From Cohnella thermotolerans DSM 17683 (GTDB taxonomy: Bacteria > Bacillota > Bacilli > Paenibacillales > Paenibacillaceae), in assembly GCF_000429825.1 (NCBI RefSeq), contig NZ_AUCP01000014.1, positions 1 to 64,000 of the forward strand: a stretch of DNA of 64,000 nucleotides, read 5' to 3'. Positions within the stretch are counted from its first letter, which is position 1. Each line of letters starts with the position of its first letter. Positions 32,394 through 46,724 of the stretch are shown one piece after another. The notes beneath the pieces are model-generated. The model was given only the letters and a program-made list of their open reading frames with translations, made no database searches and was not told the DNA's origin. A program made the position numbers and the translations under genes.

Positions 32394-33176
32394 TTACAGT
32401 TCCGGACGGAGAAGCGGAATAATCAGAGGATACGCCTCGTCGAAGCGGACCTTGGCGTCAATATCGTAAACGGCTTTCAGAAAATGCGGCGTAATGACCG
32501 CTTGAGGCGCGCCCCGCGCGACAACCGCCCCCTCCTTAACGGCGATCAGATGCCCGCAGAAGGCAGCGGCCTGCTGGAGATCGTGCAGCACCATGACGAT
32601 CGTCAGGCCGTATTCGCGGTTCAGTCCGGAGAGCACGCGCATCAAGTCCAGCTGATGGGCGATATCCAGATAAGTTGTCGGCTCGTCGAGCAGCAGAATG
32701 CCGGTCTTTTGCGCCAGCGCCATGGCGATCAGCGCCCGTTGGCGTTCGCCGCCCGACAGCGTTCTCGCCATGCGGTCCTCGTGGCGGCGAAGATTCATCC
32801 GCTCCAAGGCCCAGTCGATCGCCTGCTCGTCTTCGGCGTTCAAACGCCGGCTGAACGGACCGTGGTACGGACTGCGGCCGTAAGCGGCCAGTTCCCGCAC
32901 CGTAAGCTCGGGCAGCGTCTCCCCCGACTGCGGCAACATGGAGAGCTCTCTCGCCAACTCCGCTCTCTTATACCCGGCGAGCGGCTTGCCGTGAATGACG
33001 ATGCTCCCCCCGCCTGGAGCCAGCAGTCCGGCGATCAGCTTCAGCAGCGTCGATTTGCCCGAGCCGTTCGGTCCCACGATGGCGGTGATTTGACCGACCG
33101 GCACCGTTATCGACACCCCCGACAGCCGGAACACCCCCGCCGTCAAGCGCAGCTCGTTCGTCTCGATCGCCGTCAT
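32394..33176 (-). CDS. Haem/siderophore ABC transporter ATP-binding protein (module 1)
   Basis: FecE/HmuV-type ATPase: Walker [11 protein letters not shown]-loop SMLPQSGET, signature [15 protein letters not shown], Walker [14 protein letters not shown], switch His [13 protein letters not shown] 33176 overlaps the permease stop as ATGA and sits 9 bases after AAGGAG; an upstream TTG is too close to that site. It powers the permease encoded immediately upstream. Confidence 0.9.
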
Positions 33177-34171
33177 CGCCAATGGCTCCTTTTCTTTAAC
33201 AGATAGAGAAAAAAAGGCGCTCCGACGCAGGCCAGCAGGATGCCGACCGGAAGCTCGACCGGATCGAACCAGGAGCGCGCAATCGTATCGGCGACGACGA
33301 CCAGCGCGCCGCCGGCAAAGGCGGACACCGGAAGCAAATAGCGGTAGTCCTCCCCGATAAGCAATCTGACGGCATGCGGGACGACCAGGCCGACGAAGCC
33401 GACCAGACCGGCGACGCTGACCGCCGCTCCGGCCAGTAAGGCCGCCAGCGCCAGAAGCAGCATCCGCTGAAGCTCGACTCTCTGGCCCAGCAGCTTCGCC
33501 GATTGGTCGCCGAGCGCCAGCAGGTTCGCCGGCTTGACCGCCAGCGCCGTCAAAGCCAGACCGAGCAGCGCGTAAGGGAGCATGAAGCCCAAATGCTTCC
33601 AGCTTCGGCCGTTCAGGCCGCCCGACAGCCAGGGGATGACCGCCTGAATCCGGTCGCTATGGAAGACCATGATGCCGTTCATGACGGCTCCGAGCAGCGC
33701 ATTCACGGCGACGCCGGCCAAGACGATTTTGACGGGAGACGCGCCGCGGTCCCAGGACAGCCCGTAGATGAGCAGCGCGGCGGCGAACGCGCCGACGAAG
33801 GCGGCCGGGGGCAGCAGGTAGCTCCATTGCGGCAGCAGCACCAGCGCAATGACCGCCGCCAGACCGCCGCCGGCGGATACGCCGATGATGCCGGGATCGG
33901 CCAGCGGATTGCGCATGATTCCCTGCAGAATCGCCCCGGAGGCCGCAAGGCAGGCGCCTGTCAACAAGCCGATAAGCACCCGGGGAAGCCGCACCTCCAG
34001 CAGAATCACGGCATGCTCGGACGAGGAACCGTGCAGAAGGACCGCGCCGATCTCCCGCAGCGGGATCGATACGGAGCCCGTCGTCAGGCCGAACAGCGCG
34101 CAGGCGGCGAGCAGCGGCGGCATCAGCGCAGCGGCGATTTTCCTTTTCCGTGTGCGTTGCGCCTTATTCAT
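33173..34171 (-). CDS. FecCD-family haem/iron permease (module 1)
   Basis: A 332-residue permease with about nine to ten membrane helices and the family strings LLEVRLPRVLIGLLTGACLAASGAILQ, NPLADPGIIGVSAGGG, AGLVGFVGLVVPHAVRLLIGED and ELPVGILLACVGAPFFLYLL. Overlaps the binding-protein gene by 8 bases. The tight overlaps on both sides mean the three proteins of module 1 are made together. Confidence 0.9.
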   Translation of the reverse strand: MNKAQRTRKRKIAAALMPPLLAACALFGLTTGSVSIPLREIGAVLLHGSSSEHAVILLEVRLPRVLIGLLTGACLAASGAILQGIMRNPLADPGIIGVSAGGGLAAVIALVLLPQWSYLLPPAAFVGAFAAALLIYGLSWDRGASPVKIVLAGVAVNALLGAVMNGIMVFHSDRIQAVIPWLSGGLNGRSWKHLGFMLPYALLGLALTALAVKPANLLALGDQSAKLLGQRVELQRMLLLALAALLAGAAVSVAGLVGFVGLVVPHAVRLLIGEDYRYLLPVSAFAGGALVVVADTIARSWFDPVELPVGILLACVGAPFFLYLLKKRSHWR

Positions 34172-35120
34172 CGGACCGTTCCGAAGACACGGACGCCAAT
34201 TTGTCGCGCATCAACCGCAGCGCTTCGACGATGCGGCTGCCCGGGCTGGAGCCGAACAGATCGGACGGCAGCACTTCCACTCGGCCGTTCTTGACCGCTT
34301 GCACGCCTTTCCAGGCGGCATTGTTCTGCATCTCCTTGCGGAAGCTGTCTTCCACTTCCTCCGGGCTGCCGTGCGTCATGATGAAGATCACCTGCGGATC
34401 GGCCTCGACGATCCGTTCGGCGTTCAACTGCGCATACTGCGGATAGCTTTGCAGCCGGGGAAAATCGGAAGCGATATTGTAGCCTCCCGCCGCCTCCAGG
34501 ATGTCTCCGCCCAGGGAGCTCGGCAGCGCAGCCATGAAGGTGCCCGGAGCGCCGTATACGAGCAGCGCCCTCGGCCCGCTCTCGGCGGAGGCTGCGGACA
34601 ACCGGCCCTCTTCCGCCTCGATGCCGCCGACCAATTCGACCGCCTTCTCCTCTCTGCCCAGGAGCTGCCCGAAAAGCGCAATTTGCCGCTTGATCTCGTC
34701 GATCGAATTGGCGCTGGTCAGAACGACCTTGGCTCCGATCCCTTCCAGCATCGGGATGTCCTTCACATTCATCGGATCGTTGCCCAGCACAACATCCGGA
34801 TGCAGCAGTGCGATCTTCTCCAGGTCCACCTCGTGCGCCGTACCGATCTGGGTTACCCGCTCCGCCGCTTCGTCCGCCAGCGGCGTCGTCGAAGCGGGAC
34901 GGCCGACCAGTTCTCCTCCGAGCGCATAGATAATATTGGTCTCGCCGTTGCTCAGCGCTACAATGCGAATCGGCTTCTCGGCGAACCGAACTTCGCGCCC
35001 GGCGAAGTCGGTCACGGTCAGCGCGGCGGCCCCGTGCGCACGCTGATGCGCCGAACCGCCGCATCCCGCCAGGACAACGAGCAAACACGCCCACCCGCTA
35101 AGGAAGAGAATGCCTCTCAT
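34164..35120 (-). CDS. Haem/iron ABC transporter substrate-binding lipoprotein (module 1)
   Basis: An IsdE/HmuT-like binding protein: signal peptide with lipobox LAGC, then VTDFAGREVRFAEKPIRIVAL (cluster A-2 start), LHPDVVLGNDPMN and a long linking helix characteristic of class III binding proteins. ATG 35120 overlaps the upstream NEAT gene stop as ATGA; the longer GTG start at 35156 would run 40 bases into that gene. It would take haem from NEAT proteins and pass it to the permease. Confidence 0.88.
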   Translation of the reverse strand: MRGILFLSGWACLLVVLAGCGGSAHQRAHGAAALTVTDFAGREVRFAEKPIRIVALSNGETNIIYALGGELVGRPASTTPLADEAAERVTQIGTAHEVDLEKIALLHPDVVLGNDPMNVKDIPMLEGIGAKVVLTSANSIDEIKRQIALFGQLLGREEKAVELVGGIEAEEGRLSAASAESGPRALLVYGAPGTFMAALPSSLGGDILEAAGGYNIASDFPRLQSYPQYAQLNAERIVEADPQVIFIMTHGSPEEVEDSFRKEMQNNAAWKGVQAVKNGRVEVLPSDLFGSSPGSRIVEALRLMRDKLASVSSERSDE

Positions 35121-36259
35121 CCGCCGCGACGGCGAACGATCCGATAGCGCCACCATAGTCCGCCTCCAAGCGCCAGTATCACAGCTCCCGCAACCGCCCC
35201 CACCGACACGAAGCGGGAGCCGCCATCGCCGGCCTCCTCTTCCGGTCCGACGGCAGGAAGAACCGCCGCCGCATCCGTTCCCGCAGGAGCGGCGATGTCG
35301 GACGGCAGCGCCTCCGCCGCGCCGCTGCTGGCCGAGCCGCTCGCACCATCCTGCGCTTCGCTGCTGCCCGGGTTGCTCGCACCATCCTGCGCCCCGCCTG
35401 CGTCCGATCCACCGACGGACGCATCGCTTTCGGCCACGGCGCTCGCGGATTCTCCGCCATCTGCGGCAGCGTTGGCGGACGACCCGTCTCCCGCTCCGCC
35501 ATTCCCGGCGGCGCCTGTCGCGTGCGCTTCCCCCGCGTCGACCTTCTTCGCCGCCGCTCCTTTCGCCGCTTGTCCGTCCCCCCCTCCCGCTTCGACGTTA
35601 GGAGCGGGATCGGTCCGCGAGGACTCCTTGCCCGCCGCCGGCTTCGGAATCGCTTGCCCCGTCGCGCTTTCCTTGCCGCTTGCAGCCGGTTCCGCCGTGC
35701 CTGCGCCGCCCGCAGGTTCCGACGTCTGCGCCGGCTCCGGTTTCGCCGCAGCAGCGGTTTCCGGCTTCGCGGTCTGCCCGCTCCCCGCCGATTCGAGGGG
35801 GGCCATGGTATCCGGCTTGAAGCTCAAGCGGATCGTGTAATCGTGGTCGTAATCGATGTCCTCTACGGTCACGTGAATTTTCGACTCCAGCGGCTTCGAC
35901 AGATCGTCCGCCTCGAAGGAGACCGTCCGCGTGTCCGCCGCCTCGTCGGTGCGAAGGATTTTCGTATTGACGAAGCCTCCGGCGCCAGGCACCTTGAACT
36001 GCGTCACCCATTTGCTGTGGTTGACCGTGAGGCGAACCGTCGTTTTGCCATGGTCGAAGGTCACCGTCGCCGGCTTCTCCCAATAATCGTTCGCCATCGA
36101 TACCGAATCGTCTTCGGCCTTCAGCACGACATAATCCATCGTATAGGTCCCCTCCGCGGGCGGCGTGAATGCATGAGCCGCGGAACCGGGCAAACCTAGC
36201 GCCGCCAGAACCGCTCCCGCAACCAGCAGCGCCGACAGCCAACTTCTGCTCGCTCTCAA
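35117..36259 (-). CDS. Membrane-anchored NEAT-domain haem protein (IsdC-like)
   Basis: Signal peptide (LLVAGAVLAALGLPGSAAHA), one NEAT domain at about 30-150 with the SMANDY loop that cups haem, KWVTQF, and the iron-ligand motif YDHDY (YxxxY) in VEDIDYDHDYTIRLSF, then a ~190-residue Ala/Gly/Ser/Glu low-complexity arm and a C-terminal hydrophobic segment ending WWRYRIVRRRGG. An LPAVG string lies 10 residues before that segment; it resembles a sortase signal with Thr changed to Val. TTG 36259 follows AAGGGAAG; no better start exists. Likely passes haem across the wall to a binding protein. Confidence 0.88.
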   Translation of the reverse strand: MRASRSWLSALLVAGAVLAALGLPGSAAHAFTPPAEGTYTMDYVVLKAEDDSVSMANDYWEKPATVTFDHGKTTVRLTVNHSKWVTQFKVPGAGGFVNTKILRTDEAADTRTVSFEADDLSKPLESKIHVTVEDIDYDHDYTIRLSFKPDTMAPLESAGSGQTAKPETAAAAKPEPAQTSEPAGGAGTAEPAASGKESATGQAIPKPAAGKESSRTDPAPNVEAGGGDGQAAKGAAAKKVDAGEAHATGAAGNGGAGDGSSANAAADGGESASAVAESDASVGGSDAGGAQDGASNPGSSEAQDGASGSASSGAAEALPSDIAAPAGTDAAAVLPAVGPEEEAGDGGSRFVSVGAVAGAVILALGGGLWWRYRIVRRRGG

Positions 36260-36275
36260 TTTTCCGACTTCCCTT

Positions 36276-37058
36276 CTAGTTCCGTTCTCCGGTGCCGACC
36301 GGCACGATATACATGCCCGCCAGCTCGTCGTGACGGACGACGACATCGACGCCGTAGATGTCCTTGATCGTCCGCGCCGTCACCACCTGCTCCGGCGTCC
36401 CCTGCAGCACCGCCTGTCCGCCTTTCATCACAATGATCTCGTCGCAGTAGCGAACAGCCTGGTTCATGTCGTGCAGCACGATGACGATCGTCAGCCCATG
36501 CCGCAGGTTGAGCCTGCGAATCAATTCCAGAAGCTCGATTTGATAGTACATATCCAAATAAGCGGTCGGCTCGTCGAGGAACAGAATCGGCGTCTTCTGC
36601 GCCAGCGCCAGCGCGATCCATACCCGCTGCCGCTCCCCGCCGGACAGCTCGCAGATGCGCGCGCCGCGCCGGGCCAGCAGATTGGTGCATCCGAGCGCCC
36701 ATTCCACCGCTTCCTCGTCGTCCTCCGACCGCTGGGCGAATAGGCTCCGGTGCGGAAGACGTCCGTAATACGCCAGCCGCTCGACGGTCAGATCGCCCGG
36801 CGCGTCGTTGCGCTGGTGCACGACCGCCAGCTTGCGGGCCAGTTCCTTCGGCTTGTACGCGGCGATCGCCTTGCCGTCCAGCACCGCCGTGCCGCTGCGC
36901 GGCGCCAGATTGCGGGCCATTACGCCAAGCAGCGTGGACTTGCCGCTGCCGTTCGGCCCGATAATCGCCGTCATCTTCCCTTGCCCGATGCTGGCCGTAA
37001 CGCCCTGCAGTTGATCGGTCTTGCGGTCGTACGAATACGTGATTCCGTTAAGTTCCAT
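36276..37058 (-). CDS. Haem/siderophore ABC transporter ATP-binding protein (module 2)
   Basis: FecE-type ATPase paralogous to the module 1 protein: [62 protein letters not shown]. The ATG at 37058 (MELNGITYSYDRK) is preceded by AAAGAG and overlaps the permease end by 11 bases; a GTG at 37070 is possible. Only 16 bases separate it from the NEAT gene that follows. Confidence 0.9.
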   Translation of the reverse strand: MELNGITYSYDRKTDQLQGVTASIGQGKMTAIIGPNGSGKSTLLGVMARNLAPRSGTAVLDGKAIAAYKPKELARKLAVVHQRNDAPGDLTVERLAYYGRLPHRSLFAQRSEDDEEAVEWALGCTNLLARRGARICELSGGERQRVWIALALAQKTPILFLDEPTAYLDMYYQIELLELIRRLNLRHGLTIVIVLHDMNQAVRYCDEIIVMKGGQAVLQGTPEQVVTARTIKDIYGVDVVVRHDELAGMYIVPVGTGERN

Positions 37059-38031
37059 ACGCGCGGTCACTCTTTCTGAGCATGAAGATGAGGAAAGGGC
37101 CTCCGATTACCGTCATGATGATGGAAGCGGGAATTTCCGTCGGAGCCAGCACGGTCCGGCCGAGCGTGTCCGCCGTCAGAATAAGCAGCGCGCCGAGCAG
37201 AATGGAAAAAGGAATCAGCGCCCGGTGATCCGAGCCCACCAGCAGACGCGCAATATGGGGCACGAGCAGCCCGACAAACGCGATCAGACCGCCGACCGCA
37301 GTCGCCACGGATGCCAGCAGCACCGCGATGGCCGAGATGACAAGCCGCGCCCGCACCACCTTAAACCCCAGATTGCCGGCCGTCTTGTCCTGCAGCGCCA
37401 GCGTGTTGCACCAGGAGCTGACGGCAAGCGCCAGCAGCAGGCCGAAGGAACCGTACAGCCCCATAATCTTCACATCTTCCCATGTCTTCATCGTGAAGAT
37501 CGAGCTGATCGCCTGGTTCACGGAAGTGACCGCATAGCTGCCGCGATAGTTAAACGATTGTCCCAGCCCGGTGAAGGTGGCGTTAATCGCAACTCCGATG
37601 AGAAGGAGCCGGATCGGATGCAGCCCGCTGCTCCAGGACAGCGAATAAACGAGCAGACAAGCGAACGCCCCGCCGAGAAAGGAGAAGAACGGCATCCAGA
37701 AGAACAGGTTCGGGAAAATCGTCACCATCGTAAGCGACACGACGCCTGCGCCCGACGAGATGCCGATCACCCCCGCGTCGGCCAGCGGATTGCGCATAAC
37801 CGCCTGCAGCAGCACGCCGGATACCGCCAGCGCCGCCCCGGTCAGCAGCGAGACGATGATGCGCGGCAGCCGCAAATCCCGCACCACGTTCACATTCTCG
37901 TTGTCCCCGTTGATCAGCCCCCGGATCAGTTCCAGAAAACCGACTTTGATGCTGCCCGTCGTCATGGAGATCAGCGCAGCGGCAAGCAGCAAGATCGCGA
38001 CGACGGCAAAACAGATCGTTTTTTTCGACAT
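37048..38031 (-). CDS. FecCD-family haem/iron permease (module 2)
   Basis: A roughly 327-residue permease with the same signature strings as module 1 (VVRDLRLPRIIVSLLTGAAL, NPLADAGVIGISSGAG, GLIAFVGLLVPHIARLLVGSDH, EIPASIIMTVIGGPFLIFML). ATG 38031 lies 6 bases after GAGGAAG; ATG 38046 is an in-frame alternative. Clearly diverged from the module 1 permease, so the duplication is not recent. Confidence 0.9.
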   Translation of the reverse strand: MSKKTICFAVVAILLLAAALISMTTGSIKVGFLELIRGLINGDNENVNVVRDLRLPRIIVSLLTGAALAVSGVLLQAVMRNPLADAGVIGISSGAGVVSLTMVTIFPNLFFWMPFFSFLGGAFACLLVYSLSWSSGLHPIRLLLIGVAINATFTGLGQSFNYRGSYAVTSVNQAISSIFTMKTWEDVKIMGLYGSFGLLLALAVSSWCNTLALQDKTAGNLGFKVVRARLVISAIAVLLASVATAVGGLIAFVGLLVPHIARLLVGSDHRALIPFSILLGALLILTADTLGRTVLAPTEIPASIIMTVIGGPFLIFMLRKSDRAYGT

Positions 38032-38072
38032 CATCAGCTTCCTCATGTAGTTGATGCTCGGCCGCTCTGCCG

Positions 38073-39026
38073 CTACGGATACAGCTTCGCGGCCAGCGAG
38101 ACCAGCGCCTCGTTCGCGGCCAGATTGCCCGTCGTGCCGAACAATTCCTCCTCCAGATCATAGACGCGCCCGTTCTGCACCGCTTTGAAATGCTTCCATA
38201 TGTCGTTCTTCTTGAATTCCTCGTCGAACATCTTGACCACCTCATCCGGCATGCCGTGAGCCGCCCGCAGGATCACGTCCGGGTTGGCCTGCTGCAGGTA
38301 CTCCGTATTGGAAGCCAGATATTCGACCGATTCCCCCTGCACGACATTGACTCCGCCCAGCAATCTTACCAGATCGCCGATATACGAATGCTCCGTCGCC
38401 ACAAGGTAGCTGCCCGGCACGCCCAGCAGAATAAGCACCGTCGGCTTCTCCTTGCCGGCCGTTTCGGCCTGCAGCCTGCTCAGGGTCGCATTGAAGCTGT
38501 CCGAGAGGGTGGCGGCTTGCTCCGCGCGGTCGTACTTGGCGCCCAACTCGACGATCGCCTGCTGCATATCGGCCAAGCTCGTCAAGTCGAGGAACGTCGC
38601 CTTGATGCCCGCCTGCTCGAAGACCGGCTCCAGGTCGTACTGCAGGGTCGTCACGGACAGCACGTCCGTCGGCTTCAGCGACTTCACGAGTTCCATGTCC
38701 GGGCTCATCGGGTTGCCGACCTTCGTGACGCCGTCATACCGCGCCGGCAGCGTCTTGACGCTCTTGGGGATGCCGACCAGATCGAGCCCGAGGGCATCCA
38801 TGATCTGCGTAATCGCGACCGTCGTGGAGACGATGCGCGGAGGCGGCGTCTCGGCAGGGGCGGCGGGAGCGGACCCCGCCGCGGTCGGCGCAGCCGTCTC
38901 CGCCGGCTGTCCGGCCGCCGCCGCGCGATCCGGCTGCAAGCGAGTCCCCCCTTGCGCGCAGCCGGCAGCCAGGAGCGACCAGACGAGCAGCACGGCAAGA
39001 CCGGTCCAGAAGCGATATCTCTTCAT
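38073..39026 (-). CDS. Haem/iron ABC transporter substrate-binding lipoprotein (module 2)
   Basis: Lipobox LAAGC after a short signal, then an Ala/Pro-rich spacer and a class III binding-protein fold (PPRIVSTTVAITQIMDALGL, NPMSPDMELVKSLKPTDVLSV, YLQQANPDVILRAAHGMPDE, GTTGNLAANEALVSLAAKLYP). The 317-residue protein starts at ATG 39026, 5 bases after AGGAGG. It is the receiving protein for module 2; why the locus needs two receptors is unknown. Confidence 0.88.
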   Translation of the reverse strand: MKRYRFWTGLAVLLVWSLLAAGCAQGGTRLQPDRAAAAGQPAETAAPTAAGSAPAAPAETPPPRIVSTTVAITQIMDALGLDLVGIPKSVKTLPARYDGVTKVGNPMSPDMELVKSLKPTDVLSVTTLQYDLEPVFEQAGIKATFLDLTSLADMQQAIVELGAKYDRAEQAATLSDSFNATLSRLQAETAGKEKPTVLILLGVPGSYLVATEHSYIGDLVRLLGGVNVVQGESVEYLASNTEYLQQANPDVILRAAHGMPDEVVKMFDEEFKKNDIWKHFKAVQNGRVYDLEEELFGTTGNLAANEALVSLAAKLYP

Positions 39027-39149
39027 ATAATCCTCCTGAAAAATCGTGCTGAGGACACTCGCTTTCAGAGTTCCCTGCAGCACCTGTGAAGGTGGGCGGC
39101 GCGATCCCGCGGGCACGGCCCGCCGCGCGGTCTCGCCGCCACGCGCCGG

Positions 39150-42100
39150 TTAGGGCGTCGCGGTTGCCGCGGCTTCTTCCCGATCCGCTTGCTCCGCGGC
39201 TACCGCCGCTTGCGCTTCCGCGTAATCGAGCGCCCGCACAATCAGCGTCACCGCCTGCGCCCGCGAGAACGCGACCGTCACGCCGAACCGGTTGCCCTCG
39301 ATTCCGTTGATCAAGCCGTATTTCACCGCCGTTGCCACATAAGGCCGGGCATATGCGGGAATTTTCGCCGCGTCGGCGAACGTCGGGCCGGCTGCCTCTT
39401 CCAACGGCAAGCCGAGCGCCCTGACGGCCAGCACCGCCGCGTCCGTGCGGCTGATCTCCTGCTGCGGCCGGAAGGAACCGTCCTGGAAGCCTCCGACTAT
39501 CCCCGCGGCGACCGCTTGTTTGACAAGCTCCTGCGCCCAGGGCTTAATCTGATCCGTATCGGTGAAGCGAAGCTCCGCAGCGCCGCCGTTCAGTTTGAAC
39601 GCCCGGCTCAGCATCGCCACGAATTCGACGCGGCTCACGGTCTCATTCGGCCGGAACGAACCGTCCGCGAACCCGTTGACGATGCCCCGCTCTACGGCGC
39701 GGCTAATATCGCGGGCTGCCCAATGGCCCGCCGCATCCGGGAATTCGATTCCCGGCTGCTGTCCGCCCGGCGTGTCCGTCCCGCCGGCATTGCCGTTCGT
39801 TCCTTCCTCTTCTCCCGTTTCCTCTCCTGTTCCACCTCCGGCCGAAGATCCGCCTCCTCCCGGATTCGGTCTGTCGGTAACCGTTCCGAACGTTTCCCCG
39901 GACCATTTCGTAACCGACTTGTACGTGCCAAGCTTGATCTGGATGTCATATTCATGGAAGTAATTCATTTCGGGCCAGTCGACCTTCACATGTCCGTTCA
40001 GCACATTCGTCAGATCCGAGACCTGGAACCTGACCCATCTCGTATTGGCGGACGAGTCGGTTTCCGTCACTTGGGTCGACTTGCCTTCGACGGTAAAGGC
40101 GGTAATCTCCTTGCTTTGCTTCAACCAAATATAGACGTATTTCTTGCCGTTCTCGACGAGCAGGCGACCGGGGTGCGCCACGTATTCATCCATCACCGAA
40201 TTTTGCGAGGTGCCGTACTTCAAAATACGGAAGTTAATCTGGTACTTCCCGTCCGCCAAATCGCTCGATCCTCCAGATCCTCCGGACCCTCCGGATCCAC
40301 CCGATCCGCCGGACCCCTTCGGTACGACCGCTGCGGCGAACGCAGCCATCGCCTGTTCAAGCGCCTTCACCGCGTCGTCCGACGTCATCTGGGTTCCGTC
40401 CGTACGCGCCGCCTCCGCTCCGGCTGTCGCGATCGCCTGCTTCAGCGCGGCCGCGACCGCGGCCGGATATTGCCCCGGCTGGTCTCCGACCGTCGCACCG
40501 GCCAACAGAGCTGCGGCCTCCGCAACTTTGCCGGCGAGCGCCGCGTTGTCGATGTCGTTGAAATTCAACCGCACGTCGTGCGTTCCGCTCGCGTCGACGA
40601 CTCGCGCCTTCGTCAAAGCGGCCGCATCCGGAATCGCGATTTTGACCACCCGCGTATTGGCGTTCTTGTCCTCGCTGACGGTCGCCGCATCGACGTACTC
40701 CGCACCGTTATCCACCTTAAGCGACACGGACGAGCTGTTGCGAAGCGTAAACACCGCCTGAAGAACGCCCGCTTCCCATTTCATTTCAGCCGGCCCCGAG
40801 AAATAAGAGCCAACGGAGGAGAAAGTGTCCGACGTTCCGTCTGCCACCGTGAAGTTGGACAAATAGGCGGCGTTCCGGCGGAAATGATCCACCGCTGTTT
40901 GCAAATCGGAGCCGGCCTTTGCGATTGCGGGTCTGGTGGAAGCCAAATTGCCGGCAACCGTCCGGGCGGCGGCGATCGCGGCCGCCAAATCCTTGCGGGC
41001 CTGCTCGTAGGCGCTGTCCGCGCTCGCTTTGTCCAGCAGCTTCTGCGCAGCCGTCACCTCGTCGTTCAATTTCTTCAATTCGTTGTAGTTGTAGCTGATA
41101 TAGACGTTGCGAGTTTCGCCTCCGACCTTGTAGCTCAAGAAGGACAACCCTTCATAGAGGTCGGGATTGCCGCTTGCCCTGCTCTTCACCTGGTACGCCT
41201 TGCGCTCGGCTGTCGTGCCGTTCTGAAGCAGCACGGCCCTATACATCTCATTGTCGATCGTCACGTTGTCGTCATACGTGCCGTTGATGTTCGGGTAGGA
41301 CATCAGCACGTCGGCAACGCCGGCGTTGACAAAAGTCAGATTGGCGTAGGTGTTCGTATCCTGCGCGTTGGTCAGCAAGTACGCCGTGCCGGTAAAATCG
41401 GAAGCGTAGGCCGACTGCGCGGTCGCAGACGTTCTGTTGTCCAAAATATAAATGGGCAGCGGAGTCGGATTCAGCGTATAAACGAGCTTGCTCCGCGTTT
41501 GGTACGTGTTGGTAAGCGACGTTGTGCGCGAAGCCACCTCCGCCTCTGTCGCCGCGCTGTTCGTCAACACCGCTTCAGCGCTCTTCAAAGCGTTCTCCAG
41601 CGCGGACTTCGTGCCTCTGGCAAATTCGCCGTCGGACACGGGAGCATAGACGCCTTCCTTGCCTTCCGTCTTGCCAACCTCCCCGTGCTCCAGCACAAGT
41701 TGGTACAGAGCTTGCGTCTTATCGTAAATTTCCTGAAGCGCGGATTTATCCACCGAGCGGACGGACGCGCGGAACGCGTCGAGCGCAGCCGTTAACTCGG
41801 TGTACGCCGTCTCGACCCCGGACGGATTCGCCGCCGCATTCGCCGCAGCCGTCTCCGCCGCCGTAATGCTCGTGTTCAGCTTCTCTTTGGAACCGGCCGG
41901 ATACTGTCCGTATTCGGTTCCTTCCGCCGCGCTGTCGTATACGCTGCGGGCGGCGCCGATGAGATCGTTCAGCTTCTGCAGCGCCTCCGTACCGTCTCCG
42001 CCGGTGCCCGGGTCTCCTTCACCCGGTTCTGTCCGCGGCAGCGAGCTGGTGTCGATCGACAGCTGCACATTGTACCAATTGTCGTATACCAGCCCCGGAT

Positions 42101-42581
42101 ACTTCGGATTGTTAATGATCACGACATGCATAAGGACGTCGATCTTGTCGCTTAAATTCTCCACGCCCACGGCAACTTCAACCGGTCCGCCGTCGACGCT
42201 CGGGGAACTGACCGTGTATTCCTCGTAACCTTCCGCGTCCGACACGACGTTGTTGACCACCTTGGCCTTGGCCGCCCCCGGCTTGCGGAAGGCGATATAC
42301 GGAATCAACGCGTAGTTTTCACTCGTCACTTGATGATAGAAGGTCGCCTTGCCGTTCTCCACGACCAACCTTCCGGAATTCTCCACATTCAGGAAACCAT
42401 TCGCGGCTGACGTGGTCGTCGTCTCGTCCTTCAGATACTCGTAGGACAGATTCGTATATTCGCCGTCCGCGACGACCGCTTCGCCGCCGGTCTCATCGGC
42501 CGCGGAACCCGGCGACGGGAAGGTGAACAACAGCAGCGCCGCGATCCACAACAGAACTGTTTTTCTGATCGTCATATTCAA
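39150..42581 (-). CDS. Large S-layer-anchored NEAT-domain haem surface protein
   Basis: A 1143-residue secreted protein. Order: signal peptide (1-28); NEAT domain 1 (about 38-180) with YDNWY at 166-170; two FIVAR-like helical repeats (about 200-365); a beta-rich central region (about 370-500); another FIVAR-like helix (500-585); a NEAT-like domain lacking the ligand motif (about 590-690, THDVRLNF); a helical segment; a Gly/Ser linker; NEAT domain (about 778-890) with YFHEY; an acidic linker; three SLH domains (about 947-995, 1005-1057, 1067-1117) that bind wall polymer. TTG 42581 follows AAGGAG. Comparable to BslK of Bacillus anthracis. It should capture haem at the cell surface. Confidence 0.9.
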   Translation of the reverse strand: MNMTIRKTVLLWIAALLLFTFPSPGSAADETGGEAVVADGEYTNLSYEYLKDETTTTSAANGFLNVENSGRLVVENGKATFYHQVTSENYALIPYIAFRKPGAAKAKVVNNVVSDAEGYEEYTVSSPSVDGGPVEVAVGVENLSDKIDVLMHVVIINNPKYPGLVYDNWYNVQLSIDTSSLPRTEPGEGDPGTGGDGTEALQKLNDLIGAARSVYDSAAEGTEYGQYPAGSKEKLNTSITAAETAAANAAANPSGVETAYTELTAALDAFRASVRSVDKSALQEIYDKTQALYQLVLEHGEVGKTEGKEGVYAPVSDGEFARGTKSALENALKSAEAVLTNSAATEAEVASRTTSLTNTYQTRSKLVYTLNPTPLPIYILDNRTSATAQSAYASDFTGTAYLLTNAQDTNTYANLTFVNAGVADVLMSYPNINGTYDDNVTIDNEMYRAVLLQNGTTAERKAYQVKSRASGNPDLYEGLSFLSYKVGGETRNVYISYNYNELKKLNDEVTAAQKLLDKASADSAYEQARKDLAAAIAAARTVAGNLASTRPAIAKAGSDLQTAVDHFRRNAAYLSNFTVADGTSDTFSSVGSYFSGPAEMKWEAGVLQAVFTLRNSSSVSLKVDNGAEYVDAATVSEDKNANTRVVKIAIPDAAALTKARVVDASGTHDVRLNFNDIDNAALAGKVAEAAALLAGATVGDQPGQYPAAVAAALKQAIATAGAEAARTDGTQMTSDDAVKALEQAMAAFAAAVVPKGSGGSGGSGGSGGSGGSSDLADGKYQINFRILKYGTSQNSVMDEYVAHPGRLLVENGKKYVYIWLKQSKEITAFTVEGKSTQVTETDSSANTRWVRFQVSDLTNVLNGHVKVDWPEMNYFHEYDIQIKLGTYKSVTKWSGETFGTVTDRPNPGGGGSSAGGGTGEETGEEEGTNGNAGGTDTPGGQQPGIEFPDAAGHWAARDISRAVERGIVNGFADGSFRPNETVSRVEFVAMLSRAFKLNGGAAELRFTDTDQIKPWAQELVKQAVAAGIVGGFQDGSFRPQQEISRTDAAVLAVRALGLPLEEAAGPTFADAAKIPAYARPYVATAVKYGLINGIEGNRFGVTVAFSRAQAVTLIVRALDYAEAQAAVAAEQADREEAAATATP

Positions 42582-42769: not shown

Positions 42770-42803
42770 GCCGAAACGGTCTGAAAAAGCAGACCGTCTC
42801 GGC
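42770..42803 (-). terminator. Hairpin between the small NEAT gene and the NEAT/SLH gene
   Basis: Stem ACGGTCTG/CAGACCGT (42776-42783, 42790-42797) extended by GCCGA/TCGGC, loop of six bases, 27 bases after the small gene. On the minus strand no good U-run follows, so partial termination or an mRNA 3'-end stabiliser is more likely than a full stop. The remaining 42582-42829 shows no gene. Confidence 0.5.
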
Positions 42804-42829: not shown

Positions 42830-43210
42830 TTAGTCCCAATGAATATCGAGATCGTACCAGTCGTCATGGAACGGGGCCACGACAACGTGCAGCGAGATCG
42901 GAATATCGGCGCTGTCGCTGCCGGGGAACACGAACGTCGTGACGCCGGAGCTGTAGGAGCCGTAGTAGGTCACGCCATCCTTAACCAATTCCGGGAAGTA
43001 ATTGCCCGTCAACTTGATCGTGACCTTGCCGGTCGAATTGTCGATCGTGGCGGGTCCGGCAATAAACGAGCTCGAATGCGAATCCTCCGCGCCGTTGTAA
43101 TAAAACTTGTAGCTGTGCGTCCAGGTCGCAGCGAAAGCCGGGACGGCCAGCACGAGCGCAAGAACAGCCATTAATACGAATGAGACCGGCTTTTTCATCG
43201 TTGCAGCCAT
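42830..43210 (-). CDS. Small secreted NEAT-like protein, candidate hemophore
   Basis: 126 residues: signal peptide cut near AVPAFA-ATW, then a ~97-residue beta-rich domain that aligns with the NEAT proteins next door (GPATIDNSTGKVTIKLTG against KPATVTFDHGKTTVRLTV; HDDWYDLDIHW against YDNWYNVQLSI). At the iron-ligand motif YxxxY the first Tyr is His (HDDWY). It is far shorter than other NEAT proteins and has no anchor, so it should be released. ATG 43210 has AAGGAG 10 bases upstream. First gene after the Fur box, hence probably the most strongly expressed. Confidence 0.7.
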   Translation of the reverse strand: MAATMKKPVSFVLMAVLALVLAVPAFAATWTHSYKFYYNGAEDSHSSSFIAGPATIDNSTGKVTIKLTGNYFPELVKDGVTYYGSYSSGVTTFVFPGSDSADIPISLHVVVAPFHDDWYDLDIHWD

Positions 43211-43345: not shown

Positions 43346-43367
43346 GATAATGATAATCATTATCATT
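43346..43367 (-). promoter_or_regulatory. Fur box of the haem acquisition operon
   Basis: GATAATGATAATCATTATC at 43346-43364, continuing as a second overlapping register to 43367, a nearly ideal Fur site. It lies about 135 bases upstream of the small NEAT gene, just downstream of a TTGTTT -35-like element on the minus strand. The 43211-43579 gap holds only this control region and the hssS 3' flank. Confidence 0.9.
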
Positions 43368-43579
43368 TAAACAACCCGATGGTACATGATTCCAAATCAC
43401 TCTGTCAACCTATTTTTAGATATTTTTCTTTTTTTATTTTTATATTTCATATTATGTATTTTTGTATCCGTAACAAGGCGCGGCAAACTGAAGGAACGCC
43501 GCCGTTCCCCCGGCCTCTTCTCCTTCACCCGCGCAACGCCAGCTTAACGGCGAATTGTGAATGGAGCATGAACAACAGA

Positions 43580-44959
43580 TTACATCGGAATCGACACCCG
43601 GAAGGTGGTCCCTACTCCCGACTGGCTGAAAGCCTCGATCGTCCCTCCGTGCCGGTGAACGATTTTTTGCACGATGGACAGCCCCAGGCCGGTGCTGCCC
43701 GAAGTTCTGGAACGGGCTTTGTCCCCCCTAAAGAAACGGTCGTAAATAAACGGCAGCTGATCCTCGGGAATGCCGTCGCCGGTATCGGCCACCTCCACGA
43801 CGCAATTCCCTCCCTCGCAACGGGCCTGGATCGAAATCGAACGTCCTTCCGGCACATGCTTGACCGCGTTCGACAGCAGATTGGTCCATACCTGAAGCAG
43901 CAGCACTCCGTCCCCGCGGATCACTAGGTGACCGGGCACGGCCATGCGGACGGAGATCATCTTCTCCGTCAACTGCCACTCCATCAGCCGAAGCGCATGA
44001 TGGATCTGGCGCTTCAAATTATGCTCCTGCTTGGCGAAGCCGGCTTCTCCGGCGTTATCCAGCGTGGACAGCAGCAGCAATTGACGGCTCAAAGCCGCCA
44101 GGCGGCGCGCTTCCTGGCCGATAATGCCGGCATAGGATCGACGAAGCTCGTCCGGAAGCTCCGGCGTTTGCAGCATATCGGCGAAGCCCTGAATGGACGA
44201 CAACGGCGAATGGATCTCGTGGGACACATTGGCGACGAACTCCCGTTTCGCCTTGTCCGCACGCTCCAATTCCCGGCTCATCGTCTGAAAATGGGACGCC
44301 AGCTGCCCGATCTCGTCTTTTCTGTTCGTATTGAGTTGAAGATTGTAATGGCCTTGGGCGATCTTCTTGGTCGCTTCCGTCAGAAGCGTAACGGGCTGTA
44401 CCAGATAACGGGTGCTCAGGAGAAAGGTCGGAATGCTGAAGAGGACGGTAAGCAGAAAAATCAAGAAAAAATAAATCCGCAGTTCCCCGAACTGAAGCTG
44501 AATATCCGGCCGCAAAAACAGCGCGTACGCTTCCTCCCCGTCCTGCAGCCGCACGCCCACCGAGTTGCTCAGGCTGTTCTCGAAATAACCGGTCAGGAAG
44601 GGATAATCGGGATACTCCGCAACCCCGTGGTACACTTCGCCCTCCAGCACGATACGCTTGATATCGTCCGAGAGCTTCCCTTTGCGGAACGGGTGGCCGA
44701 AGAACATCTCGTTCCTGTTCCGGTCGACCAGATAAATCTGGTAACCGAGCGCGGCCGTATGGCTCAAATATTCTCCGAGCATGGCCGGATTACGCTCTGC
44801 GAATGCGCGTATTTCTTCGGCTATTCCCGTCAGCTTGGCGTCCGTCAGAGGCTTCAGCTTCCAATGATAATAGACGTTGGAGACATAGAAGCCCAGCAGC
44901 GTGCTGAGCGCAACCGTATACACGATAAGAACGAAGACGCGAAAATAGAGCGACTTCAT
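43580..44959 (-). CDS. hssS: Haem-sensing histidine kinase HssS
   Basis: A 459-residue membrane kinase matching staphylococcal HssS well: SNVYYHWKLKPLTDAKL after the first membrane segment, the sensor strings GYQIYLVDRNRNEMFFGHPF, EVYHGVAEYP, FLTGYFENSLSNSVGV and FLRPDIQLQF, a second membrane segment, HAMP, H-box NVSHEIHSPLSSIQGF and an ATPase domain (VADTGDGIPEDQLPFIYDRFF, STGLGLSIVQKI). It should autophosphorylate in response to excess haem or membrane damage. ATG 44959 overlaps the hssR stop as ATGA. Confidence 0.88.
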   Translation of the reverse strand: MKSLYFRVFVLIVYTVALSTLLGFYVSNVYYHWKLKPLTDAKLTGIAEEIRAFAERNPAMLGEYLSHTAALGYQIYLVDRNRNEMFFGHPFRKGKLSDDIKRIVLEGEVYHGVAEYPDYPFLTGYFENSLSNSVGVRLQDGEEAYALFLRPDIQLQFGELRIYFFLIFLLTVLFSIPTFLLSTRYLVQPVTLLTEATKKIAQGHYNLQLNTNRKDEIGQLASHFQTMSRELERADKAKREFVANVSHEIHSPLSSIQGFADMLQTPELPDELRRSYAGIIGQEARRLAALSRQLLLLSTLDNAGEAGFAKQEHNLKRQIHHALRLMEWQLTEKMISVRMAVPGHLVIRGDGVLLLQVWTNLLSNAVKHVPEGRSISIQARCEGGNCVVEVADTGDGIPEDQLPFIYDRFFRGDKARSRTSGSTGLGLSIVQKIVHRHGGTIEAFSQSGVGTTFRVSIPM

Positions 44960-45633
44960 AGCTCCGGAACCTCGATTTTGTACCCGATCCCTCTCACCGT
45001 ATGGATGATGAAGTTGTTCTCGCTGCCGATGAAGCGTTTGCGCAATCGTTTGATATGCACGTCCACCGTCCGCTCGTCGCCGGCGTAATCCGCTCCCCAT
45101 ACGAGCCGAATCAGATCATCGCGCGAGAACAGACGTCCCGGATATTGCGCCATCTGGGCCAGAAGCTCGAATTCCTTGAGCGGCAGCAGCACAACGGTAT
45201 CGCCGTCGATCACCTCATGATTCTGGAGATCGATCACAAGCCGATTCAGTCTGATCTTGTCGCTCGAAGGCACCGAATAGCGGCGGAACAGCGCCTTGAT
45301 TCGAAACAGCAGCTCCGGCAGCTCGTACGGCTTGGTCACGTAGTCGTCCGTACCGCTAAGATACCCCTGCGTCTTATCGGACAACTGGTCTCTTGCCGTC
45401 AGCAGAATGATCGGGATATCGTAGCTGTCCCTTATGTATTCGCACAAGGTCAGACCGTCGATCTTGGGCATCATGATGTCGAGAATCGCCAGATCGATCG
45501 GGTGCTCCTTCAGCACGGCAATCGCTTCCTCGCCGTCCTGCGCTTCCAGAACCCTGAATCCCTGTCTGGTCATGTAATGATTCAGAAGCGACCGGTTATG
45601 AACATCGTCATCTGTAATCAACAGCTGCTTCAT
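44956..45633 (-). CDS. hssR: Haem response regulator HssR (OmpR/PhoB family)
   Basis: 225 residues: receiver domain with acidic pocket TDDD, phospho-Asp52 in LAILDIMMPKIDG, the HssR-like SGTDDYVTKPYELPELLFRIKALFRRY and a winged-helix output (YPGRLFSRDDLIRLVWGADYAGDERTVDVHIKRLRKRF). In staphylococci and bacilli HssR activates the haem exporter HrtAB; no hrtAB is seen within this window. Located directly upstream of the haem uptake operon and led by a Fur-box promoter. Confidence 0.88.
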   Translation of the reverse strand: MKQLLITDDDVHNRSLLNHYMTRQGFRVLEAQDGEEAIAVLKEHPIDLAILDIMMPKIDGLTLCEYIRDSYDIPIILLTARDQLSDKTQGYLSGTDDYVTKPYELPELLFRIKALFRRYSVPSSDKIRLNRLVIDLQNHEVIDGDTVVLLPLKEFELLAQMAQYPGRLFSRDDLIRLVWGADYAGDERTVDVHIKRLRKRFIGSENNFIIHTVRGIGYKIEVPEL

Positions 45634-45775: not shown

Positions 45776-45805
45776 ATTATAATCGATATTGATTATCATT
45801 ATCAA
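45776..45805 (-). promoter_or_regulatory. Promoter with Fur box for hssRS
   Basis: On the minus strand TTGATA (45805-45800), 18 bases, TATAAT (45781-45776). The spacer and -35 form GATAATGATAATCAATATC, a good Fur site. The leader to hssR is about 140 bases. Nothing else in 45634-46154 looks like a gene. Confidence 0.8.
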
Positions 45806-46683: not shown

Positions 46684-46724
46684 CATAGTAATTGATAATG
46701 ATTCTCATTGTCAATTACTATGTG
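46684..46724 (-). promoter_or_regulatory. Fur-controlled promoter with long palindrome
   Basis: On the minus strand TTGACA (46714-46709), 18 bases, TACTAT (46690-46685). The spacer carries a Fur site with TTGATAATGA and TCATTGTCAA arms. The palindrome extends outwards to ~19-bp arms with one mismatch (ACATAGTAATTGATAATGA and its counterpart). Confidence 0.85.

Follow-up and report, generated by a model that had tools for sequence, protein, structure and literature searches.

Genes and features of the locus

Cohnella thermotolerans DSM 17683 is a soil bacterium related to Paenibacillus. The window, i.e. the whole stretch of 64,000 nucleotides of its genome that was analysed, contains a minus-strand locus with the order Fur box, mini-NEAT, NEAT/SLH gene, IsdE, permease, ATPase, IsdC-like gene and a second binding-protein, permease and ATPase set. 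The features are as follows:

43379..43408, minus strand: promoter-like sequence TTGACA-18-TACCAT, 10 of 12 positions, just upstream of the Fur box; a consensus match only
43346-43364, no strand assigned: Fur box GATAATGATAATCATTATC, exact at 19 of 19 positions, 135 bp upstream of the mini-NEAT start
42830..43210, minus strand: gene of the putative bis-His mini-NEAT, a signal peptide and one domain (ORF, homologue family and profile match to NEAT)
43076..43078, minus strand: codon of His45 at the lip-helix (3-10) position, predicted distal ligand; place computed from the start at 43210
42866..42868, minus strand: codon of His115, the predicted proximal ligand, where NEATs have the haem-ligand Tyr
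39150..42581, minus strand: partner protein of 1143 aa with 3 NEAT, one FIVAR and 3 SLH domains (Pfam)
38073..39116, minus strand: IsdE haem-binding lipoprotein (TIGR03659, 407.6 bits, cut-off 298.65)
37048..38046, minus strand: ABC permease of iron-chelate type, IsdF-like (many FhuB/FecD-type NCBIfam matches, none above the cut-off)
36276..37070, minus strand: ABC ATPase (ORF by eye)
35117..36346, minus strand: IsdC-like single-NEAT protein (NEAT 1.5e-37; LPAVG, hydrophobic stretch and basic tail by eye)
32394..35156, minus strand: second set of binding protein, permease and ATPase (ORFs by eye)

The mini-NEAT ORF has an ATG start preceded by an AAGGAG ribosome site and encodes 126 amino acids. 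The signal peptide ends with VPAFA before ATW (cleavage point assigned by eye), which leaves a mature protein of 99 amino acids, 10.96 kDa and pI 4.6 with five His but neither Met nor Cys. Inspection of the 126 residues by eye showed no lipobox, SLH or LPxTG anchor, and Pfam gave no SLH either; by these two means the protein is predicted to be secreted and unanchored in the manner of an IsdX1-like haemophore. IsdE probably starts at an internal ATG around 39026, as judged by eye.

Homologues and comparison sets

Of 394 genomes searched within the same family, 26 hold a match at E <= 1.2e-15, the window's own genome counted, which exceeds what chance would give. The looser limit of E <= 0.01 gave 71 of the 394, many of them matched partially, and the many weak matches among these (E 1e-4 to 1e-2), mainly to residues 4-69 in frames of 390-430 amino acids, were left out. 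A second family of the order contributed matches in 94 of 392 genomes (E <= 0.001), many of them weak, and 15 of its loci were extracted. The distribution of the mini-NEAT family is patchy. A first contig scan with the window protein gave no match, and the closer alignment A3 as query retrieved nine loci in named Paenibacillus records; a plasmid search gave no match. A class-wide search with profile A5, which includes the signal peptide so that scores may be raised by it, matched 6 of 398 genomes at E <= 1e-5. Five matches besides that of the window were opened by eye: two are IsdC-like NEAT proteins outside the order (E 4.6e-9 and 4.3e-7), two from the same family are NEATs, and L113 appears unrelated.

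The family set comprises 49 distinct proteins from two families of one order: the window protein, L083, 31 genes of 20-kb loci and 17 of a further set, minus one because the pair L053/L054 is identical. Excluded before this count were eight Tyr-type proteins (L060, L061, L062, L063, L064, L065, L066 and L110), eight more small Tyr-type NEATs of L060, L061, L069 and L073, and one NEAT fragment of L051. None of the 16 excluded Tyr-type small proteins has either of the two histidines discussed below. The first eight form a sister clade of small secreted Tyr-type NEATs in the same gene slot. Counts of gene context and Fur boxes are based on another 49 genes, namely that of the window, the 31 and the 17, with L083 left out.

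For comparison, a profile made from the window's NEATs was used to collect NEAT domains of larger proteins in the fetched loci (domain E < 1e-5, more than 85 profile positions). Of 162 domains found, 13 in frames under about 900 bases were removed, leaving 149 from 38 of 40 loci, a set that is biased toward window-like NEATs because the profile was built from the window's own; 24 of the 149 lie in frames of 900-1500 bases (IsdC-like size).

Fur boxes and gene neighbourhood

The exact 19 of 19 box agrees with the earlier note, in which mini-NEAT was the first gene after a Fur box. In 100 shuffles of the window no Fur-box match appeared at <=3 mismatches. Promoter-like motifs number two in the region against 1.1 expected from shuffles. 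Among the homologues, a Fur box of at least 16/19 within 500 bp of the start is present at 47 of 49 genes (the window, 29 of 31 and 17 of 17), and base shuffles of the 31-gene set scored at most 15. Both genes that lack a box belong to the 31: that of L068 and the second of the tandem copies in L049. The Tyr-type sisters L060, L061, L063, L064, L066 and L110 have no Fur box of their own. The predicted Fur control of mini-NEAT is thus well supported, and the gene is probably turned on by iron shortage. A third Fur-like site in the window lies at 46694-46712 with two mismatches.

Relatives occur in other haem loci, in support of the earlier note's reading. In 44 of 49 cases (the window, 28 of 31 and 15 of 17) the same strand carries a long NEAT-containing frame that starts no more than 600 bp downstream; in one of these the second tandem copy sits between mini-NEAT and this frame. 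In L072, L074, L091 and L092 mini-NEAT is convergent with the NEAT gene. In L038 it stands apart from the NEAT gene with its own Fur box, the NEAT and IsdE genes being elsewhere in the genome. Among the 31 genes of 20-kb loci, 15 share their stretch with IsdE. For the 16 loci without it, all 15 genomes searched hold IsdE over the cut-off elsewhere, compared with 0 of 14 controls; this search covered the first family except G324 (a short contig). Second transporter sets similar to that of the window occur in many homologous loci.

Relationship to NEAT domains

Searched alone, mini-NEAT matched no NEAT model in Pfam (E 10), NCBIfam (E 1) or PHROGs, and as a single sequence it does not reach the Pfam gathering score for PF05031. 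The Pfam search of the whole genome gave four NEAT matches, all within the locus and mini-NEAT not among them. In the alignment A1 of the His-type family, two of 22 members have a NEAT match in Pfam, the best with E 0.06 and below the cut-off. Stray weak Pfam matches in family members were to TIG in two (best 0.014) and to OMP_b-brl in one (2.4e-4).

Profile comparisons give a different picture. With the first 25 residues removed, hhalign of the His family against the 149 NEATs of larger proteins scored 94.5% with E 7.7e-8, and against the small secreted Tyr-type NEATs 98.3% with E 1.2e-14; with only the four NEATs of the window it was 77% with E 2e-5. In the control, 60 column shuffles reached E 0.023 at best and the reversed profile 0.29, compared with 1.7e-8 in a rerun of the real comparison; this bears out the NEAT relationship claimed in the earlier note although the single sequence finds no NEAT model in Pfam or NCBIfam. 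The Tyr-type small proteins pass the Pfam NEAT cut-off (4 of 4 given, 3.0e-9 to 1.5e-8), whereas none of six His-type proteins run alongside did. A mixed profile of His and Tyr types, A6, had IsdX1, IsdX2 NEAT5 and IsdC as its six best matches in PDB (E 1.2e-6 to 1.8e-5), the top one being 3SIK with E 1.2e-6, which is IsdX1 in the text excerpted from PMC4143258. The His-only profile A1 found no NEAT in PDB at E 10, and the easy assignment to NEAT is therefore weakened.

The profile kinship has the ligand columns in register, as expected within the NEAT superfamily, and the lip motif S-x4-Y/F is present, reading S-H-S-S-S-F in the window protein with the Ser variable among homologues. That mini-NEAT belongs with the NEAT superfamily is, as far as sequences can tell, well supported; the kinship is visible only via profiles, and the small Tyr-type NEATs appear to be the link. 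In detail the fold would be the eight-strand NEAT sandwich with a 3-10 lip helix.

Two conserved histidines

Both hhalign and MAFFT align HDDWY (H115-Y119) with the YxxxY of NEAT domains, so that the motif of Tyr-type haem-binding NEATs is replaced. The earlier note's description of a secreted protein of 126 residues with HDDWY at this motif holds, on the evidence of the ORF, the signal peptide and these alignments. In the MAFFT alignment H115 coincides with the leading Tyr of YxxxY, and H45 with the second position of the lip-helix motif SxxxxY.

H45 and H115 are present jointly in 48 of the 49 distinct family proteins, and the remaining one, a second tandem copy in L049, has neither but T and I at the two places. 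His at the place of the haem-ligand Tyr, as it was put in the earlier note, is thus fixed as far as His115 is concerned, but the description was incomplete in that the second conserved histidine, His45, was missed. Both belong to the ten invariant columns over the 22 sequences of A1. By comparison, His occurs at neither place in the 149 NEAT domains: 135 have Tyr as the proximal residue, and V, M, I, A, T or S predominate at the distal one. In eight Tyr-type sisters the proximal residue is Y and that of the lip W, R, M or Y. Within the family the second residue of the motif varies (Y, F, R, H, M, L or S), and most members have the lip sequence H-[SAV]-[SN]-x-[YF], which reads HSSSF in the window protein. 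With a second fixed His in the lip helix, what seemed a swap of one residue becomes a likely two-sided (bis-His) ligation.

A tree was built from the small proteins and 17 of the 149 NEAT domains on 113 columns, both His columns omitted; many of its forks are weak. It places 58 small proteins on one side of a branch with SH-aLRT 99. In this clade both histidines are present in 49 rows, neither in nine and a single one in none. Two changes are needed for each His alone and two for the pair as one state. The coupling of the two histidines rests on few events because there is one gain on one branch and one loss. The tandem copy at L049:10222-10671 has lost both histidines and kept the rest of the domain, and is a natural control.

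Comparison with known haem proteins and possible function

NEAT domains are the standard haem carriers of Gram-positive bacteria, and the tyrosinate ligand is thought to favour ferric haem. Papers are cited here from excerpts of their text. In Tyr-type NEATs a propionate is held by the lip Ser and the iron is ligated by the first Tyr (PMC4143258, PMC7815599), and different axial ligands occur in certain NEATs from other species (PMC7815599). One IsdC-type NEAT of Paenibacillus polymyxa that was tested bound haem (PMC4143258). IsdX1-type secreted haemophores of Bacillus are, like mini-NEAT, single NEAT domains without an anchor. Mini-NEAT differs from IsdX1 by H115 for the first Tyr of YxxxY and by His at lip position 2, and the His-only profile misses IsdX1. 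In the NEAT of Staphylococcus IsdA the distance between His83 and the ligand Tyr166 is 83 residues, compared with 70 between H45 and H115. We take IsdA His83 to sit directly after the lip Ser. IsdA resembles the proposed mini-NEAT in having a lip-helix His able to ligate the iron, which in IsdA it does once the Tyr is removed (PMC4143258). The NEAT1 and NEAT2 of Shr and also Shp in Streptococcus pyogenes are similar to the proposed mini-NEAT in having two neutral ligands; in Shr NEAT1 these are Met390, directly after the propionate-binding Ser389, and Met475 (PMC12796733). Here the ligands are methionines and in mini-NEAT, whose mature part has none, they would be histidines, the match of positions being taken from the text of the paper and not from an alignment. 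Given the ligand places in Shr and IsdA, the His pair of mini-NEAT therefore occupies, by motif, both known places from which a NEAT domain reaches the iron. HmuY of Porphyromonas is functionally comparable as a haemophore-like protein with His134 and His166 as ligands, and its cousin Tfo is bis-Met (PMC6200708), i.e. the same choice of His or Met in another fold and phylum, with no kinship claimed.

It is fairly probable that mini-NEAT is a secreted NEAT haemophore with bis-His ligation, a counterpart of the bis-Met NEATs of streptococcal Shr. Haem as the ligand, the bis-His ligation and the direction of transfer are what we infer. Under iron starvation, Fur would allow mini-NEAT to be made and secreted as an unanchored, diffusible protein that may capture free or loosely bound haem outside the wall. 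The haem would be held between His45 of the lip helix on one face and His115 of strand beta-8 on the other, six-coordinate and probably low-spin. It could then be passed to the Tyr-type NEATs of the SLH-anchored product of the neighbouring gene and from there to the IsdC-like protein, IsdE and the ABC transporter. Neutral ligands would be expected to tolerate ferrous haem better than tyrosinate does, by analogy with methionine (PMC12796733). Whether the family as a whole is a separate natural NEAT lineage that went from tyrosinate to bis-His is a wider proposal towards which we lean only slightly; it would consist of secreted haemophores for ferrous and ferric haem, a redox-tolerant front end feeding Tyr-type NEATs, with a single origin from a small Tyr-type NEAT that in relatives is still in the same slot.

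The two histidines might instead hold another ligand, either a bare metal (Zn, Cu, Ni or Fe) or a tetrapyrrole. Products of chlorophyll and Co or Zn porphyrins also accept His ligands. Chlorophyll has been proposed as a possible ligand of NEATs in soil bacteria (PMC4143258), and two fixed histidines beside a second Tyr that is not fixed would suit such a ligand. This is unlikely given that the genes lie next to NEAT genes in loci with Fur boxes, about half of the 31 sharing their 20-kb stretch with IsdE, and that both histidines align with positions where haem ligands of NEATs are known; for a bare metal, two fixed histidines are few.

A precedent for a domain of this kind that binds no haem is IsdH NEAT2, whose motif begins with His (HEDYD) (PMC4143258), and therefore His115 alone would not be enough. 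Mini-NEAT is regularly paired with one partner gene, and it could be a non-haem NEAT that docks to a protein, as the haemoglobin-binding NEATs of IsdB and IsdH do, and aids the SLH-anchored NEAT protein. The docking lips are aromatic with His third, FYHYAS (that of IsdH NEAT2) and YYHFFS (PMC4143258), but in mini-NEAT the lip is not aromatic and its His is second, and the two histidines are kept or lost jointly, which makes docking distinctly improbable. A haemoglobin-binding NEAT was ranked low because the lip is not aromatic. Five-coordinate haem on His115 alone, assisted by Tyr119 and with His45 merely a lip residue as in IsdA, where His83 is close to the haem and Tyr is the ligand (PMC4684392), is very unlikely because lip and proximal His were gained and lost together and the second Tyr, retained in the HDDWY of the window protein, is not conserved in the family.

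Bis-His ligation of haem thus remains the preferred reading of the conserved pair. In the excerpts of the open-access literature, including PMC4143258, PMC4684392, PMC7815599, PMC12796733, PMC5026354, PMC6200708 and PMC12670364 and with subscription papers outside the scope, no NEAT domain with bis-His ligation was found; bis-His there refers to the haemoglobin hemichrome, HasR or HmuY, and the term is also used in PMC9168843 and PMC7865249. If the reading is true, the family is a natural ligand-swap experiment in soil bacteria beside the streptococcal bis-Met NEATs, and a single scaffold on which the effect of ligand chemistry on affinity, redox state and direction of the haem relay might be measured. 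It would also suggest a function for a protein left without annotation by the Pfam, NCBIfam and PHROGs models used.

Further observations on the loci

Between mini-NEAT and the NEAT/SLH gene there is a hairpin (42770-42803, minus strand) of 14 pairs with one G-U and no T-run. The whole gap has a folding z of -2.46 and no terminator call. This hairpin could set the ratio of the two gene products. In the SLH protein the second NEAT (40599-40865, minus strand) matches only profile positions 8-98 of 119, with no YxxxY after it (by eye).

Immediately upstream of the locus the minus strand encodes a two-component system (43580-45633), accompanied by a Fur-like box with one mismatch at 45785-45803. 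It presumably resembles the haem sensor HssRS; no NCBIfam model was over the cut-off among the best 25 matches listed per protein. In the 40 homologous 20-kb loci strong orthologues were found for the response regulator in 12 (E <= 1.1e-108) and for the kinase in 11, and L065 has one further, much weaker pair.

The mini-NEAT copy at L038:9793-10299, with a Fur box of 18/19, lies among ATP-grasp, IscA-like and NDH-2/ferredoxin-reductase-like genes (named by eye). In L055, L056, L057 and L071 the mini-NEAT/SLH pair is directly preceded, in the same orientation, by a pair of ABC genes encoding 588-653 amino acids.
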